A DNA stretch of 12,687 bases from Planctomycetota bacterium (GTDB lineage: Bacteria; Planctomycetota; Phycisphaerae; WQYP01): positions 1-12,687 of the forward strand of contig JAKCCC010000017.1 in assembly GCA_021838985.1 (NCBI GenBank), in the 5' to 3' direction. Positions within the stretch are counted from its first letter, which is position 1; the number at the start of each line of letters is the position of its first letter. Under the pieces are notes generated by a model, which was given only the letters and a program-made list of their open reading frames with translations, was not told where the DNA came from and searched no databases. This document shows positions 2,551 through 7,322 of the stretch, one piece after another. The translations under genes and the position numbers were made by a program.

Positions 2551-3342
2551 TCAGTGGTGTTCCTTGCGTTGGCTTAGCAGCGCCGTCGGATACCCGGCAG
2601 CCGTAAATTTCCTCACGAGTGTCTGCGGATCAAACGTATGTGGATCGGCGGTAATTACAACGCTGCCATGGGTATAGGAAACGCGGGCGGTTTTTACGCC
2701 TGGCAATCTTGCCGCCACGGCCTGCAAGCCGGCGGCACAGGCTGTACAATCCATCCCTTTTACCTGGTAGTTATAGGTGTGCCATGCCGCGGCAGCATCC
2801 GTTTTGGCCACCTTGCCTGCGGATACATACGAGGCTGCAGGCGCAGGCGTGTGGGGAGTGGCCGTTGTGGTGGCGGCATGGGAGGCGCCCCCACCGCTGA
2901 CGGCGCGGATCAATGGCGCCCCGTAGTAGGGAAATGCGGCGAAAAGAATTACCAGCACGGTTGAAGCCCAAAGCGCCAAACGCCCACCGGCCCGCCGGGT
3001 TGGACCGCTGGCGCTGCAGCACGCCGCGGCCGCTGTCCCCGTTCGCCGCCGAAAATAGGCCCGGTAAAAGGCCAAGCCCAGCGCAATGGCGGCGATGCCC
3101 AGCAGCGGATACCGCAACGAAGCGATAACATTGGCCGCCGCTCCGGCCGCTGAGGCGCCCACCGCCAGCAGCAGCACGGGCAACCAGCAGCAGGCCGAAG
3201 CCAGAATGGCCGCTCCCATGGCCACCAGGCCGGTTCGCCATAAACCGCCCGGCGGTGCATTTCCGCTAATGTCGGTTGGCCCAGGCTGTGCCGGTTTTTC
3301 GCAACAGTCTTGGGCACTCGTGATGGTTGGGGGCTTTTCCAT
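2551..3342 (-). CDS. merT: Mercuric transport protein, MerT-MerP fusion
   Basis: A 263-residue inner-membrane protein with a C-terminal periplasmic-type HMA domain. The MerT part has three membrane helices (about residues 37-66, 70-96 and 121-148). A Cys pair sits in the first helix (C51-C52, in ASACCWLP) and a second pair in the loop after helix 2 (C108-C109), matching the cysteines MerT uses to relay Hg(II). An additional N-terminal pair is C13-C14. A linker rich in Ala, Thr and Pro leads to an HMA domain with GMDCTAC (C199, C202), equivalent to MerP. The expected role is to bind Hg(II) outside, pass it through the membrane and hand it to MerA. The start is the ATG at 3342, 7 bases after AAGGAG; that AAGGAG overlaps the merA stop codon, so merA and this gene are coupled. 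Upstream in-frame starts would overlap merA and lack a ribosome site. No separate merP is seen. Confidence 0.9.
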   Translation of the reverse strand: MEKPPTITSAQDCCEKPAQPGPTDISGNAPPGGLWRTGLVAMGAAILASACCWLPVLLLAVGASAAGAAANVIASLRYPLLGIAAIALGLAFYRAYFRRRTGTAAAACCSASGPTRRAGGRLALWASTVLVILFAAFPYYGAPLIRAVSGGGASHAATTTATPHTPAPAASYVSAGKVAKTDAAAAWHTYNYQVKGMDCTACAAGLQAVAARLPGVKTARVSYTHGSVVITADPHTFDPQTLVRKFTAAGYPTALLSQRKEHH

Positions 3343-3353
3343 ACCGCATCTCC

Positions 3354-4796
3354 TTATGTAGCACAACAACTCAAGTGTGTAGGATCCTTTGAAAAGGCCA
3401 GCGCCGCCAGCTTCATCCCTTCACCCAGGGTCAGATAGGGATGGAAACTTTCACGAAGCTGGCGAACCGTGATGCCGAATTTGATCGCCAGCGCCGCTTC
3501 CATCAGCAGTTCTGAACCTTCTGCCGCCAGAATACGCGCCCCCAGTAATCGATCGGTTTTGCGGTCGCGAATCAATTGGATCACACCCCGGGTATCGCGG
3601 GCGGCTATGGCCCGCGGCACGTGGGCTAAGGGTAACGCGGCGGATTCAGCCTCCCAGCCTGCTTCGCGTGCCTGGCGCTCATCGACGCCGACGCCGGCGA
3701 CCTGCGGATCTGTAAAAATAACCCAGGGCAGCGCGGTATAGTCGGCAGCGCGCCGGGCTCCGGTCAGCGCATTTTCCGCGGCCAACGCACCTTCATATGC
3801 CGCGGTATAAACAAACATGTGCTGGCCCAGCACATCTCCCGCCGCCCATACTCCCGCCCGCGTGGTTTGCAACGTTGGGTCGACGGTGATAAATCCACGC
3901 TTATTGAGCTCCACGCCCGCCTTTTCTAATCCCATATGGTGGGTATTCGGCGCGCGGCCCGTCGCCACCAGAATCCGCGCGGCGGTGAAATCCCGCCGCG
4001 CACCATTGATTGTGGCGGTCACGAGCACGTTCGGTCCGCGGCGCTGAACCTGCTCCACGGCCACACCGGTGACGATCTCCAGACCTTCGCCCACCAGATA
4101 GGTCGTCAGGAGGTTTGTGAGATCTTCCGCTTCTGTTGGCAGGATTCTGTCGGAACGTTGTAAAATCGTAACGCGGCTGCCCAGACGGGCGAACAGTTGC
4201 GCGCATTCCAACGCGACGTAACGCCCCCCCAACACGATCAGCGATTCCGGCAATGATTCCAATTCAAATAGGGATTGATTGGTCAGATAGCTGACGTCGG
4301 CCAGGCCGGGAATCTCGGGAATGGCAGCCGTAGCGCCGGTGGCGATTAAAATGTGATCCGCCACCAGCTGTTCGCCGCCAACCTGCACCGTCTTGTCGTC
4401 GATTAGCCGGCCGCGGCCCTCAATCAGTCGCACCTGGGGTAAACGACGGATTACCTCGAGATATTTTGCCTGGCGCAACCCATCCACCAGACGGCGTTTT
4501 TCTTCAATGATGGCTGGAAAATGCGCCAGGTGGCCCCTGGTTTGAATGCCTGCGAACGGATTATGCCTGGCCCGATACAATGATTCAGCCGCGCGTATCA
4601 GCGTTTTGGAGGGCACACATCCCACATTGACGCAGGTTCCACCGGTGGGAAGGCCGCCGTTGATAATGGTAACTTGATCCGCGCCTAATTCGACCGCGCG
4701 GCTGGCGGCGGCGAAGGCGGCGGAGCCGCCGCCGATGATAATCAACGTTCCAGCCGCATCCCGTTCGGATGTATCGTTACCACAACAAGAACCCAT
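3354..4796 (-). CDS. merA: Mercury(II) reductase MerA
   Basis: A 480-residue FAD-dependent disulfide oxidoreductase that reduces Hg(II) to Hg(0) with NADPH in the cytoplasm. Visible elements are the FAD dinucleotide fold IIGGGSAAFAA (about residues 20-30), the redox disulfide GGTCVNVGCVPSK (C55, C60), the NADPH-binding fold around VLGGRYVALE, the second FAD motif AAGDVLG, the HPYLT dimer-interface motif, and the vicinal C-terminal pair in LSCCAT (C477-C478), which is diagnostic of MerA against other family members. The N-terminal HMA domain of Tn501-type MerA is absent; instead the protein begins MGSCCGN, with a Cys pair that might serve capture. The ATG at 4796 follows AAAGG by 7 bases; a GTG two codons upstream (4802) is an alternative start. 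The gene lies after the 77-aa peptide gene, separated by two hairpins, and its stop overlaps the merTP ribosome site. Confidence 0.96.
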   Translation of the reverse strand: MGSCCGNDTSERDAAGTLIIIGGGSAAFAAASRAVELGADQVTIINGGLPTGGTCVNVGCVPSKTLIRAAESLYRARHNPFAGIQTRGHLAHFPAIIEEKRRLVDGLRQAKYLEVIRRLPQVRLIEGRGRLIDDKTVQVGGEQLVADHILIATGATAAIPEIPGLADVSYLTNQSLFELESLPESLIVLGGRYVALECAQLFARLGSRVTILQRSDRILPTEAEDLTNLLTTYLVGEGLEIVTGVAVEQVQRRGPNVLVTATINGARRDFTAARILVATGRAPNTHHMGLEKAGVELNKRGFITVDPTLQTTRAGVWAAGDVLGQHMFVYTAAYEGALAAENALTGARRAADYTALPWVIFTDPQVAGVGVDERQAREAGWEAESAALPLAHVPRAIAARDTRGVIQLIRDRKTDRLLGARILAAEGSELLMEAALAIKFGITVRQLRESFHPYLTLGEGMKLAALAFSKDPTHLSCCAT

Positions 4797-4849
4797 AAAC
4801 ACGCCTTTCCTCGCATAATCTGCGATATCCGACTCAACAGCTCAAACCC

Positions 4850-4899
4850 ACCGGGACCGTGCAGGCGCGATGATGCACACGCCTGCGCGGTCCCCCGGT
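4850..4899 (-). other. Long imperfect hairpin upstream of merA
   Basis: Arms at 4850-4867 and 4880-4899 pair over about 17 positions, with a two-base bulge and one mismatch, around a 12-base loop. The stem is GC-rich and has no following T-run, so it is not a standard intrinsic terminator. Lying between the small-peptide stop and the merA start, it could stabilise the upstream message, act as a processing site or reduce merA expression. The pairing is read directly; the role is inferred. Confidence 0.5.
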
Positions 4900-4906
4900 G
4901 AGCCGA

Positions 4907-4931
4907 GGCTGGCGGTTCCACCGCCAAAGCC
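4907..4931 (-). other. Hairpin directly after the 77-aa peptide gene
   Basis: GGCTGGCGG (4907-4915) pairs with CCGCC plus AGCC (4921-4925, 4928-4931), with a two-base bulge and a five-base loop. It starts two bases after the stop codon of the peptide gene in the direction of transcription. There is no T-run. With the larger hairpin at 4850-4899 it forms a tandem structure before merA. The effect on transcript stability or partial termination is inferred. Confidence 0.45.
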
Positions 4932-4933
4932 AG

Positions 4934-5167
4934 TCAGTGGCAGCAGCCGGGCTGGCTACCGGATGGCGCCTTTGGGTTAGTCTTTGATCCCGCCTTACCA
5001 CTGGACCTGACGCAGTGCGGATCCGTGCAACTGCTGGCCGCCACCATGGACGCCGCAGTCCAAGAGGGGGCCGGCAACTGTGCTACCATATTTGCACTGG
5101 CCAGCCCGGATAGTCCAACACCCGCCGCCAGCAGCGCTGCGGCCATCCAGAACATTGTGCCCTTCAT
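4934..5167 (-). CDS. Small exported Cys/His peptide, mer-associated (paralogue 2)
   Basis: A 77-residue protein of no family I recognise. Residues 1-25 form a Sec signal peptide (basic MKG, hydrophobic stretch, cleavage after ASA). The mature part carries SWTAAS, the motif C-T-D-P-H-C (C47 to C52), SSGK, and a terminal G-C-C-H (C75-H77). It is clearly paralogous to the peptide at 6674-6892: both start MKGT, share WTAAS, C-x-D-P-H-C and SSGK, and end in a Cys/His tail. This suggests a periplasmic soft-metal ligand or carrier, probably for Hg(II). AAGGAGG lies 6 bases before the ATG. The open frame continues far upstream of this ATG, but that part overlaps the thioredoxin-HMA gene and the promoter, so the long form is rejected. 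A MerR-type promoter lies about 90 bp upstream; merA and merTP follow on the same strand. That the gene is real is likely; its function is inferred. Confidence 0.8.
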   Translation of the reverse strand: MKGTMFWMAAALLAAGVGLSGLASANMVAQLPAPSWTAASMVAASSCTDPHCVRSSGKAGSKTNPKAPSGSQPGCCH

Positions 5168-5254
5168 AGGACACCTCCTTATTAAACCCGGCTTGGACAA
5201 AAGCCTCCTTATTCCGGATAAGCCGGGAAGGCCCGGAATTTGGATCACTGAGTA

Positions 5255-5286
5255 TTCGTACACGTTGTACTTAGATGCAGGGTCAA
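5255..5286 (-). promoter_or_regulatory. Diverged MerR-type promoter for the peptide-merA-merTP unit
   Basis: On the minus strand, TTGACC (5286-5281), a 20-bp spacer and TACGAA (5260-5255). The spacer aligns without gaps to the one at 6450-6481, with 13 of 20 positions identical, but the left half of the dyad is altered, leaving CTAAGTACA rather than a full palindrome. The geometry matches the other two promoters. It precedes the peptide start by about 88 bases. It may be a weaker or differently tuned MerR site. Confidence 0.6.
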
Positions 5287-5394
5287 GCGATAACATTTCA
5301 CACGCAGTTATCCCGCAGCAACGCACAACTCTGCGCCGCAAGGACGTTCCCCCCTTTGCTGGATTAACTTGTCTCATCATTGCCAGCATGCGCG

Positions 5395-6372
5395 TTACCC
5401 TGCCGTTCGCCTGCCGCCCGAACTTCCCGACCTCGTTTTGGTGCCGGGAACCGACGGCCCAGTAACGGGTTTCAAAATAAAGGTATGGTGGATCGCACCC
5501 CGATGGAACCCTATTGTCAGGACCACCCCCGCGTGGAATGGTGGAGCTTTGGCCTGCACACAAGCGGTTCCATGGGCGTATGAAACCATTGCCTTCTCCA
5601 CACCGGACAACTGGAGAAGCCTCTTACGCAGACTTGTCCGGCAAAGCGGACACTCCATCCCGCTCACACGGTAGGAATAGGTCGCATCGGTAATTGCCTG
5701 TTTCCGGATTGAGACGGACTTCCGATTCGCCATGACGCGATCCTCGTTCTGTGCCGAATCCCCAAGCACTTTCCGCACGTCGGCGAGCAGTCGCGCCGGA
5801 GCGTAGCCAGCGACAATATGCCGCACGATTCCCTGGCGGCCAATAACAAACTCTGTCGGAAAACCGATGACACCAAATTTGTGGGCGAGGATAGAATTTC
5901 CAGATCTCCCGTCAAATATCTGGGGCCAAGCAGCTTCGGGATGCGACTTTAGATAAGCACGCACCGCCGTGGCGGTTGTACGGATCGGGACCCCCAAAAC
6001 CTCCAGCCCCCTGGAGTGATGTTTTTGGTAAATGGTTTGAATGCATGGGGCTTCCTTCATACAAAGTGGGCACCATGGGCCCCAGAAATCAAGCACCACC
6101 ACCTTCCCTTTCCAACCGGCGGTGCTCAGATGTCCGCCCCCAAGAAGCCGTGCGCGCACCACGACGGGCTTGCCTTTTGAGACGGTGGCGTTTAATACCG
6201 TCTGGCGTCCGTTCCTTGTAGCTGGTGGCCCACCGCAACAGGCGGCCATTGCCGTCGGGCTACCCGTGGCGGGCTGGTCCGCGCGGGCGGAACTCAGCGG
6301 GGAGAGACAACAGCAACTGAGGGCAGCGACCAATGGCACGCCAACCGCACACGGAATAAGCCTACCAAACAT
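5395..6372 (-). CDS. Exported thioredoxin-fold protein fused to a MerP-like HMA domain
   Basis: A 325-residue protein. Residues 1-31 look like a Sec signal peptide (cleavage near SARA), preceded by a triple Cys at 20-22 and followed by a C45-C46 pair. Residues about 65-205 are a TlpA/ResA-like thioredoxin domain with FWGPWCPLC (C101, C104) and the cis-proline block GFPTEFVI (P172). Residues about 230-300 align without gaps to the HMA domain of the MerTP protein in this window and carry GMECPLC (C241, C244) and VSYAHG; the last strand is poorly conserved. Expected location is the periplasm; likely roles are reducing thiols on, or taking mercury from, partner proteins. The start is the ATG at 6372, with GGAGG 8 bases upstream; an in-frame GTG at 6429 would need a poorer site. 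A MerR-type promoter lies about 78 bases upstream. Domain calls are firm; the role is inferred. Confidence 0.87.
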   Translation of the reverse strand: MFGRLIPCAVGVPLVAALSCCCLSPLSSARADQPATGSPTAMAACCGGPPATRNGRQTVLNATVSKGKPVVVRARLLGGGHLSTAGWKGKVVVLDFWGPWCPLCMKEAPCIQTIYQKHHSRGLEVLGVPIRTTATAVRAYLKSHPEAAWPQIFDGRSGNSILAHKFGVIGFPTEFVIGRQGIVRHIVAGYAPARLLADVRKVLGDSAQNEDRVMANRKSVSIRKQAITDATYSYRVSGMECPLCRTSLRKRLLQLSGVEKAMVSYAHGTACVQAKAPPFHAGVVLTIGFHRGAIHHTFILKPVTGPSVPGTKTRSGSSGGRRTAG

Positions 6373-6449
6373 TTTGAAAGCCTCCGTCCAAGAGAGCCTT
6401 TGAACTAAATCGAGTGCCGACGCCGGCACGATTCGTTCGACACCTCACC

Positions 6450-6481
6450 ATTCTACATCCTGTACCTAGGTACGGAGTCAA
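6450..6481 (-). promoter_or_regulatory. MerR-type promoter/operator upstream of the thioredoxin-HMA gene
   Basis: On the minus strand, TTGACT (6481-6476), a 20-bp spacer and TAGAAT (6455-6450). The spacer contains the perfect palindrome GTACCTAGGTAC (6462-6473), and the -35 side reads TTGACTCCGTAC as in classical mer operators such as that of Tn501. The over-long spacer with a central dyad is the hallmark of MerR-family activation by DNA untwisting. This is the best of the three sites in the window. Confidence 0.88.
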
Positions 6482-6610
6482 GCCCCCGTGTTGGCGCGCG
6501 TCGCTCGTAGTAACCCAGCGTTTCAAGATTTATCGCCTCACCAACTCTCCACATACGTTGCTCCTCGGCTCGAAACCTAACTTTTTTCGACCAATCCAAT
6601 CTTCCGTGCA

Positions 6611-6639
6611 TGGCCCGGCGGTTTTCACCCGCCGGGCCA
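6611..6639 (-). terminator. Perfect 11-bp hairpin after the 72-aa peptide gene
   Basis: TGGCCCGGCGG (6611-6621) and CCGCCGGGCCA (6629-6639) form a perfect stem around a seven-base loop, 34 bases past the stop of the peptide gene and before the next MerR-type promoter. There is no T-run on the minus strand, so it is either a factor-assisted terminator or a 3' stabiliser. Confidence 0.5.
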
Positions 6640-6673
6640 CGGGCACCGATAGGGGGCGGGACACACCAGCAGC

Positions 6674-6892
6674 TCAGTGACAATGGCTGCAACCGGGGCA
6701 GGTCGGGTCATGACACTTGCCGCTGCTTTGACCACAGTGCGGGTCTTTGCAAGCGATACGCGGCGTGGCGCCACTCGCCGCCGTCCAACCGGCGTGCGCC
6801 GATACCTCCGCCGTTGCAGCCTGGCCGACCGCCGCCACAGACAAACCACCGGCCAGGACCATGGCCGCCAACATTGAAATCGTGCCTTTCAT
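6674..6892 (-). CDS. Small exported Cys/His-rich peptide, mer-associated (paralogue 1)
   Basis: A 72-residue protein of no family I recognise. A signal peptide ends near ATA (residue 27). The mature part of about 45 residues has GWTAAS, then C-K-D-P-H-C (C48 to C53), SSGK, and a dense tail with C60, C65, C68 and C71 interleaved with His 61, 70 and 72, ending CSHCH. Six cysteines and four histidines in 25 residues point to binding of a soft metal, most likely Hg(II) given its place. It shares the start MKGT, the WTAAS and C-x-D-P-H-C motifs and its 5' leader with the 77-aa peptide at 4934-5167. GAGGAGG lies 6 bases before the ATG. A strong MerR-type promoter is about 92 bases upstream, with a perfect hairpin downstream, so it may form its own transcript. 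Function is inferred; a metallothionein-like sponge or a metal chaperone are both possible. Confidence 0.82.
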   Translation of the reverse strand: MKGTISMLAAMVLAGGLSVAAVGQAATAEVSAHAGWTAASGATPRIACKDPHCGQSSGKCHDPTCPGCSHCH

Positions 6893-6983
6893 AGGGCACC
6901 TCCTCGATAACCCCGGCTTCAACAACGATCTCCATCCTCCAAAGCAGCCGGTACGCCCTGGAAAGATGACCTTCCGATATTCC

Positions 6984-7015
6984 ACTCTACACCACGTACT
7001 ACAGTACGGAGTCAA
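6984..7015 (-). promoter_or_regulatory. MerR-type promoter/operator upstream of the 72-aa peptide gene
   Basis: On the minus strand, TTGACT (7015-7010), a 20-bp spacer and TAGAGT (6989-6984). The spacer begins CCGTACTGTAGTACG and contains the perfect dyad CGTAC-N4-GTACG (6995-7008), matching the mer operator type. It is the first promoter of the mercury island. No divergent merR gene lies to its right, where one is usual. Confidence 0.85.
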
Positions 7016-7322
7016 GGGCTGGGCGGCTATCAGCGTTGGCAGGTTTCCGGATGGTTACCTGGCAGGATCCTGGGAACCCCGAATTGTCTTATGATTTTGC
7101 CGGCGGGTGTCCGTCGAACGGAAGGCGCCCCGGGAGGGACTCACCAGACGACCCATTCGAAAGGAGCCGCCGCGTCACACGATCGATGGCTTGCCTTTGA
7201 TTCGTGCAGGCCCAGCACCCTGCACCCACCATCAGATGCGTCTCCAGCCAGTAATCGTTCACGGGTCCCGATGGCTATCGGGATTCGCCCATCGTCACCC
7301 GTCCCCGGCGCCTCACCCGCCG

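Follow-up and report, generated by a model that had tools for sequence, protein, structure and literature searches.

We analysed a contig of 12,687 nucleotides (nt) from a Planctomycetota bacterium (JAKCCC010000017.1; hereafter the window), focusing on the interval 4934–6892, in which two short, probably exported Cys/His-rich peptides are encoded among mercury resistance (mer) genes. Peptide 2 opens the array and peptide 1 lies directly upstream of merA. In minus-strand order the features are:

6984–7015, minus strand: MerR-type operator/promoter of peptide 2, TTGACT ... TAGAGT with a GTAC-N4-GTAC dyad (pattern match)
6899–6905, minus strand: Shine-Dalgarno (SD) sequence of peptide 2, GAGGAGG (sequence)
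6674–6892, minus strand: peptide 2, 72 amino acids (aa), signal-peptide-like N-terminus followed by a part with 6 Cys and 5 His that ends in CPGCSHCH (translation)
6612–6638, minus strand: GC-rich stem-loop after peptide 2 (predicted; z −3.0 for the region)
6485–6554, minus strand: merR remnant beside a promoter, holding only the start of MerR, about the first 20 codons (sequence comparison)
6450–6481, minus strand: second MerR-type operator/promoter, before the redoxin-HMA gene (pattern match)
5395–6372, minus strand: redoxin/TlpA-like protein fused to a C-terminal HMA domain (domain scans)
5255–5286, minus strand: third, degenerate MerR-type operator, before peptide 1, retaining TTGACC and the dyad but with a weak −10 (alignment with relatives)
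5174–5180, minus strand: SD of peptide 1, AAGGAGG (sequence)
4934–5167, minus strand: peptide 1, 77 aa, signal-peptide-like N-terminus followed by a part with 4 Cys and 2 His that ends in PGCCH (translation)
4907–4933, minus strand: small stem-loop directly after the peptide 1 stop codon (predicted fold)
4838–4905, minus strand: large stem-loop separating peptide 1 from merA, shared by five relatives (predicted; leader z −4.6)
4811–4825, minus strand: small stem-loop just before the merA SD (predicted fold)
3354–4796, minus strand: MerA mercuric reductase (TIGR02053, 539 bits against a curated cut-off of 454)
2551–3342, minus strand: MerT-like protein with a fused C-terminal HMA domain (HMA above its cut-off)

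The two peptides have WTAAS, C[KT]DPHC and SSGK in common, end in PGCSHCH (peptide 2) or PGCCH (peptide 1), and are 39% identical over 66 positions (E 2e-8 in a single comparison). They are real genes and diverged paralogues. An earlier interpretation made from the DNA alone (the sequence-only reading) had described two paralogous peptides of these lengths, motifs and tails, each behind a strong ribosome site, and all of this is as described. The ratio of non-synonymous to synonymous substitution rates (dN/dS) was 0.17–0.52 in nine of ten pairs of family genes, and the tenth pair (L025/L026) differed by three synonymous and no non-synonymous changes; on this evidence the peptides are coding beyond chance and under purifying selection. 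The genes are short and belong to no database family, as might be expected of spurious open reading frames (ORFs) in GC-rich DNA. That explanation is already contradicted by the selection on amino-acid sequence and, given the conserved SD and promoter and 17 protein clusters, we regard it as barely credible. Compared with the contig L001, which comes from a Planctomycetota metagenome-assembled genome, the promoter, leader and signal-peptide codons of peptide 2 (window 6809–7015) are almost the same while the mature part has diverged. The proportion of synonymous differences (pS) is 0.13 in the first 28 codons and 0.62 in the mature part, and a recombination boundary may therefore lie within the gene.

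A search with peptide 2 alone recovered three close homologues, and a five-row profile added three further relatives, of peptide 1. A 15-row profile then retrieved 17 clusters (E 5.4e-6 or better, among 3204 candidates from ~5.8 billion proteins searched), one of which is peptide 1 itself; an 18th cluster, at E 7.3, was dropped. Source organisms were named for two clusters, a Planctomycetia bacterium and a Phycisphaerae bacterium. The final alignment holds 25 rows and leaves out P0016 (50 aa, near-identical to part of L027). Most rows start with MK(G), followed by a hydrophobic segment (present in 25/25), CK(D/N/E)PxC, a linker of variable length and the end PGCC(H/R/Q); CKxPxC is the best conserved mature motif. 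No row has a Cys within the first 28 residues, and each has 3–8 thereafter. Lengths are 68–82 aa apart from L004, which has 115 aa as read: there (L004:9486-9833) the usual stop is lost and the peptide runs 42 residues on through its own stem-loop region. Fast divergence hides family members: the gene in genome G015 was missed by the first profiles. It encodes a very diverged 79-aa peptide with 8 Cys and the end LLPPCCR, before merA (L049:307-546).

None of the 25 members matched any Pfam family at 0.01, and scans of the window peptides against Pfam and NCBIfam gave only weak matches, judged to be chance. Within these two libraries, the claim of the sequence-only reading that the peptides resemble no known small mer protein or metallothionein holds. 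Peptide 2 had no match in the PDB by sequence, and the profile had two meaningless ones (E 3.1 and 5.4). A tblastn search of plasmids returned 13 Thermus records (E 0.2–0.9) that lie under a metallo-beta-lactamase-fold hydrolase and were rejected as chance, and no relative of the peptides was found in viral contigs. AlphaFold2 predicted one N-terminal helix and otherwise no fold (predicted local distance difference test score 52.9, predicted template modelling score 0.17), which, together with the varying linker between CKxPxC and PGCCH, fits disorder. Among the titles and abstract openings of the literature matches listed, there was no paper on such peptides in mer operons; an excerpt of one paper (PMC3737084) has a hypothetical protein, orf4, between merR and merT1.

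Among 100 relatives of the L001 genome, 20 matched the peptide profile at E 0.1 and 6 at E 3e-4 or better; the weak matches in the 14 others (E 0.001–0.09) were dropped before counting. Across the 396 genomes of the class, with 14 candidates scored per genome, 15 matched at E 0.01 and the same 6 at E 1e-22 or better. The nine others (E 2.5e-4 to 0.009) were dropped, the best of which, G041, covers profile positions 1–41. One marginal genome, G014, was left out of the peptide-carrier and context counts. MerA scored above its curated cut-off in 11 of the 100 relatives, with a contig-end fragment in G026 besides. Of the 27 genomes in the order, 11 carry MerA, ten with a score above the cut-off plus G026 with its fragment; the 7 peptide carriers all belong to these 11. 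The G015 peptide was found by inspecting the region upstream of merA and then put into the profile, so its later profile match is by construction. Many contigs are short, and absence of the peptide may be a gap. When 392 genomes spread over the phylum were searched, five had MerA above the cut-off, one of them G001; in the other four, inspection by eye of same-strand ORFs of 30–250 aa in the 900 bases before merA revealed no family member. Two of these regions (L062 and L064) encode HMA-like proteins. The family is found in planctomycetes wherever the organism is named, mainly in one order of 27 genomes. The sequence-only reading had proposed searching for homologues near merA in genomes of the Planctomycetes–Verrucomicrobia–Chlamydiae (PVC) group; the tie to mer operons stands, the spread over the PVC group at large does not. 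The window, G001 and G026 each have two peptide copies, which suggests dosage.

We read 11 contexts, the two in the window and nine in relatives, and all are mer, so that the homologues near mer genes called for by the sequence-only reading were indeed found. The next gene is merA in seven (gap 109–150 nt), merR or its remnant in three, and a merA remnant followed by merT in one. The order peptide, merA, MerT-HMA occurs in L026, L027, L028 and L029, with MerT and HMA as separate ORFs in L029. L025 has the same order as L026–L028 up to its contig end within merA, and L049 has the peptide, merA and then a MerT-like ORF. Genes of peptide-2 type precede merR in L004, where an ORF containing MerT-HMA follows, and in L001, where a methyltransferase and an HMA P-type ATPase follow. 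The family genes are thus encoded with merA, merT or merR behind a MerR-type promoter, that of peptide 1 itself being degenerate. Natural variants show that peptide and merA can be separated. L024 has the order redoxin-HMA, a peptide of type 1 with a shifted start, merA remnant, MerT-HMA; merA is reduced to its C-terminal 36 residues (75% identity) while the peptide gene and merT are kept. L047 (G013) has lost the peptide and keeps a strong stem-loop before merA (z −3.4). In L050 (G002), L051 (G018) and L070 (a second locus of G019) both peptide and stem-loops are gone and merA stands at the position of the peptide's SD; these loci are 99–100% identical in DNA over ~4 kb, which may reflect either recent transfer or mixed bins. 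L042 (G016) has neither peptide nor stem-loop. Weak, out-of-place peptide matches in L070, L050, L051, L047 and L042 (E 2e-4 to 0.009) were judged to be chance.

The putative promoter of peptide 2 has one mismatch to a consensus modelled on the Tn501 mer operator, and a tighter pattern fitted to the window's own sites gave no chance match in 200 shuffles; as a sequence assignment it is firm. A loose spaced version of the pattern fits 10 of the 11 family genes. The miss is peptide 1, whose TTGACC and dyad align with the operators of relatives but whose −10 is degenerate, and its MerR-type promoter is therefore assigned only by homology. Of the two MerR-type promoters proposed earlier, one per peptide, that of peptide 2 is borne out and that of peptide 1 survives only in this weaker form.

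Stem-loops were scored by z against 100 shuffles. The value was −4.6 for window peptide 1, −4.6 in L025, −4.6 in L026, −4.3 in L027, −5.9 in L028 and −1.8 in L029; it was −3.0 for window peptide 2, −7.7 in L001 and −5.5 in L004; L049 gave −0.8 and L024 +1.2. Strong stem-loops (z −3.0 or below) thus follow 8 of 11 family genes and, where present, are strong as predicted structures. Pair counting across six leaders found 96.8% of cells paired, compared with 33–43% after a slide of 1–3 columns. Covariation was modest: three pairs differed at both partner positions, and 46 of 500 shuffles gave as many. The merA SD lies outside the large stem-loop and only borders the small one; it pairs elsewhere in several folds, and its predicted openness is middling (0.27–0.57 over nine leaders).

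Several neighbouring features of the window deserve mention. MerA showed no HMA domain match in the library scans, and MerT fell below model cut-offs (29.0 versus 32.9 bits for Pfam, 89 versus 180 for the MerTP fusion model). The redoxin-HMA protein is 79% identical to L024:1359-2414, and such a fusion behind its own MerR-type promoter is by itself an unusual mer component. A complete merR was not seen in the window. The merR remnant is shared with L043 (G001), where it is 92% identical over 182 bases, has an in-frame stop and stands directly before merA; L043 covers 238 bases upstream of merA, and its MerA is 90.5% identical to that of the window. In L001 and L004, by contrast with the remnant, the gene after the peptide-2 relative is an intact merR. 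Upstream of peptide 2, a degenerate anti-sigma-like ORF was noted by eye (7089–7262, minus strand). The mer genes adjoin an extracytoplasmic function (ECF) sigma factor gene in L027 (L027:5521-6132) and, in L029 (L029:5734-6678), an ECF sigma factor gene together with a short anti-sigma-like gene (NF052368 match below cut-off).

Taken together, the mer linkage, the selection, the MerR-type promoters and the restriction of Cys to the probably exported part suggest that Hg(II) is dealt with outside the cytoplasm. In planctomycetes, the family peptides appear to be made early from mercury operons under MerR control. We propose, with about even confidence, that they form a new, fast-evolving family of probably Sec-exported, disordered Cys/His-rich peptides that act as a mercury-induced periplasmic buffer or donor. 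To judge from the operator, and from the MerR proteins that relatives encode, the promoter would be activated by Hg(II)-bound MerR, and the strong SD would give a high peptide yield; the stem-loop behind most genes may keep the peptide-coding stretch of the mRNA more abundant than what follows it. After export, the 3–8 Cys, with His, would bind Hg(II) in the periplasm and protect thiols there, and the peptide would pass Hg(II) on to HMA-tagged MerT, and in the window also to redoxin-HMA, for import and reduction by MerA. We rank a buffer first among the possible roles for three reasons: L047 and L024 have one of peptide and intact merA without the other, the drift in Cys number and linker is that of a flexible chelator, and the peptide occurs in duplicate copies. 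The sequence-only reading had likewise suggested a periplasmic mercury sponge or donor to HMA domains; its observation is confirmed and its interpretation as a whole partly supported.

Several points weigh against the buffer proposal. Peptide 1 has only 4 Cys and P0017 only 3, and L029 and P0010 lack the PGCCH tail. The low confidence of an AlphaFold2 model built on 25 rows supports disorder only weakly. No peptide was seen in four of the order's 11 genomes with MerA (G002, G013, G016 and G018), and of two mer loci in G019 one has it and the other lacks it; the peptide is therefore dispensable. The co-occurrence of peptide and MerA, which speaks for the proposal, gives Fisher p values of 0.0016 (6 carriers), 0.0004 (7) and 0.0025 (G014 counted against), which are only a guide because the genomes are related and not independent and because G002, G018 and G019 share the near-identical peptide-less locus. 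G014 is an exception, if a marginal one (E 2e-5, 2 Cys), without MerA above the cut-off; its 12-kb locus (L030) has no MerA, MerT-HMA or MerR match, and the match does not lie near mer genes. Finally, a conserved C-terminus together with stem-loops could equally mean regulation.

Regulation would take the form of a nascent sensor like CutF or CruR, a rival that the sequence-only reading had not considered: an upstream ORF translated and exported at once, in which Hg(II) on the Cys tail affects how the ribosome moves and whether the stem-loop region ahead of the next gene is opened or terminates, tuning the output of merA (or merR). Seven of the 11 genes stand immediately upstream of merA; this placement and, mostly, the stem-loops fit a sensor, which is why we keep it as a serious rival. 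The signal-like start and Cys-rich C-terminal end are also the layout described for CutF in an excerpt of PMC9973294, and CruR, a copper-sensing upstream ORF according to an excerpt of PMC9426467, provides a precedent. Yet 5 of the 25 rows pass the Pro-Pro filter (last 15 residues), the window peptides not among them, the placement and middling openness of the merA SD and the modest covariation do not favour it, L047 keeps a stem-loop without a peptide, and P0010 and L029 lack the conserved end. L029 is also weak in structure and L024 has none. L049, which stands before merA without unusual structure, slightly lowered the weight we give to a sensor, and we consider it unlikely, if the strongest of the alternatives. 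Somewhat less likely again is a combined version, in which the exported nascent peptide would be a second, extracytoplasmic Hg sensor atop MerR and, once released, also a mercury sponge. On a par with this doubtful version we place a partner-specific periplasmic chaperone that takes the place of MerP and hands Hg(II) to MerT-HMA or redoxin-HMA. It draws on the conservation of CKxPxC, on the HMA fused to MerT and on the scan of window proteins, which turned up no separate MerP; but the peptides have no predicted fold and vary in linker and Cys number, unlike the folded MerP, and L029 has an HMA ORF apart from MerT. A peptide for copper, silver or general thiol stress that shares the mer promoter by position only is improbable. 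Cys/His ligands are not metal-specific, and the mer genes of L027 and L029 have ECF sigma factor genes in their vicinity, but all 11 contexts read are mer. Moreover, the MerR proteins of L001, L027, L028 and L029 score best against the TIGR02051 MerR model, though below its cut-off, and carry three Cys spaced nearly as in Hg-type MerR (Tn501 spacing).

In known mer systems, Hg(II) is taken into the cell to be reduced, with MerP regarded as responsible for the periplasmic step. If the buffer proposal or its sensor rival is right, mer-linked exported disordered thiol peptides would mean that Hg(II) is also buffered or sensed beyond the membrane, and the family would offer short natural candidates for Hg binding. 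The natural series of loci with peptide, without it, with the stem-loop only and with peptide but without merA makes sponge versus sensor testable.

Bacterial metallothioneins are Cys/His-rich and metal-induced, and the known ones are cytosolic, whereas the family peptides have signal-like starts and no Pfam match. MerP is the small, folded, Cys-based Hg(II) binder of mer operons, located in the periplasm and carrying one GMTCxxC motif, whereas the family peptides have several clustered Cys and no predicted fold. A periplasmic location of MerP is also given in an excerpt of PMC8261052. Neither window peptide matched TIGR02052 or PF00403/HMA at E up to 1, and MerE, MerF, MerG and MerH, compared through Pfam and NCBIfam scans only, gave no credible match. 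With CutF, CruR and CopL the family shares a short, signal-bearing Cys-motif peptide before a metal gene, mostly with an intergenic stem-loop, but those are copper genes and these are mercury genes. The CutF-like rule of fewer than 150 aa with an N-terminal signal peptide fits the family, the signal being putative. Its Pro-Pro rule mostly does not. As for a stem-loop shielding the next SD, strong predicted stem-loops follow 8 of 11 genes, and the merA SD borders a small one. No member (0/25) matched DUF2946, the CruR family, in the Pfam scan at 0.01. SilE and PcoE are parallels in kind: they too are small, exported (the peptides probably so) and rich in metal ligands. An excerpt of PMC5008109 describes silE as having its own promoter with strong metal induction and its protein as disordered when free and binding several ions. 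The MerR-type pattern of the family genes and the AlphaFold2 model would be the counterparts of that promoter and that disorder. SilE has 143 aa and His/Met ligands, whereas the family peptides are about half as long, use Cys/His and sit in mer operons; no Pfam match links them to SilE/PcoE, and the profile finds no such PDB chain. Most likely, a buffer or donor of this family would work as SilE and PcoE do while being unrelated to them in sequence.

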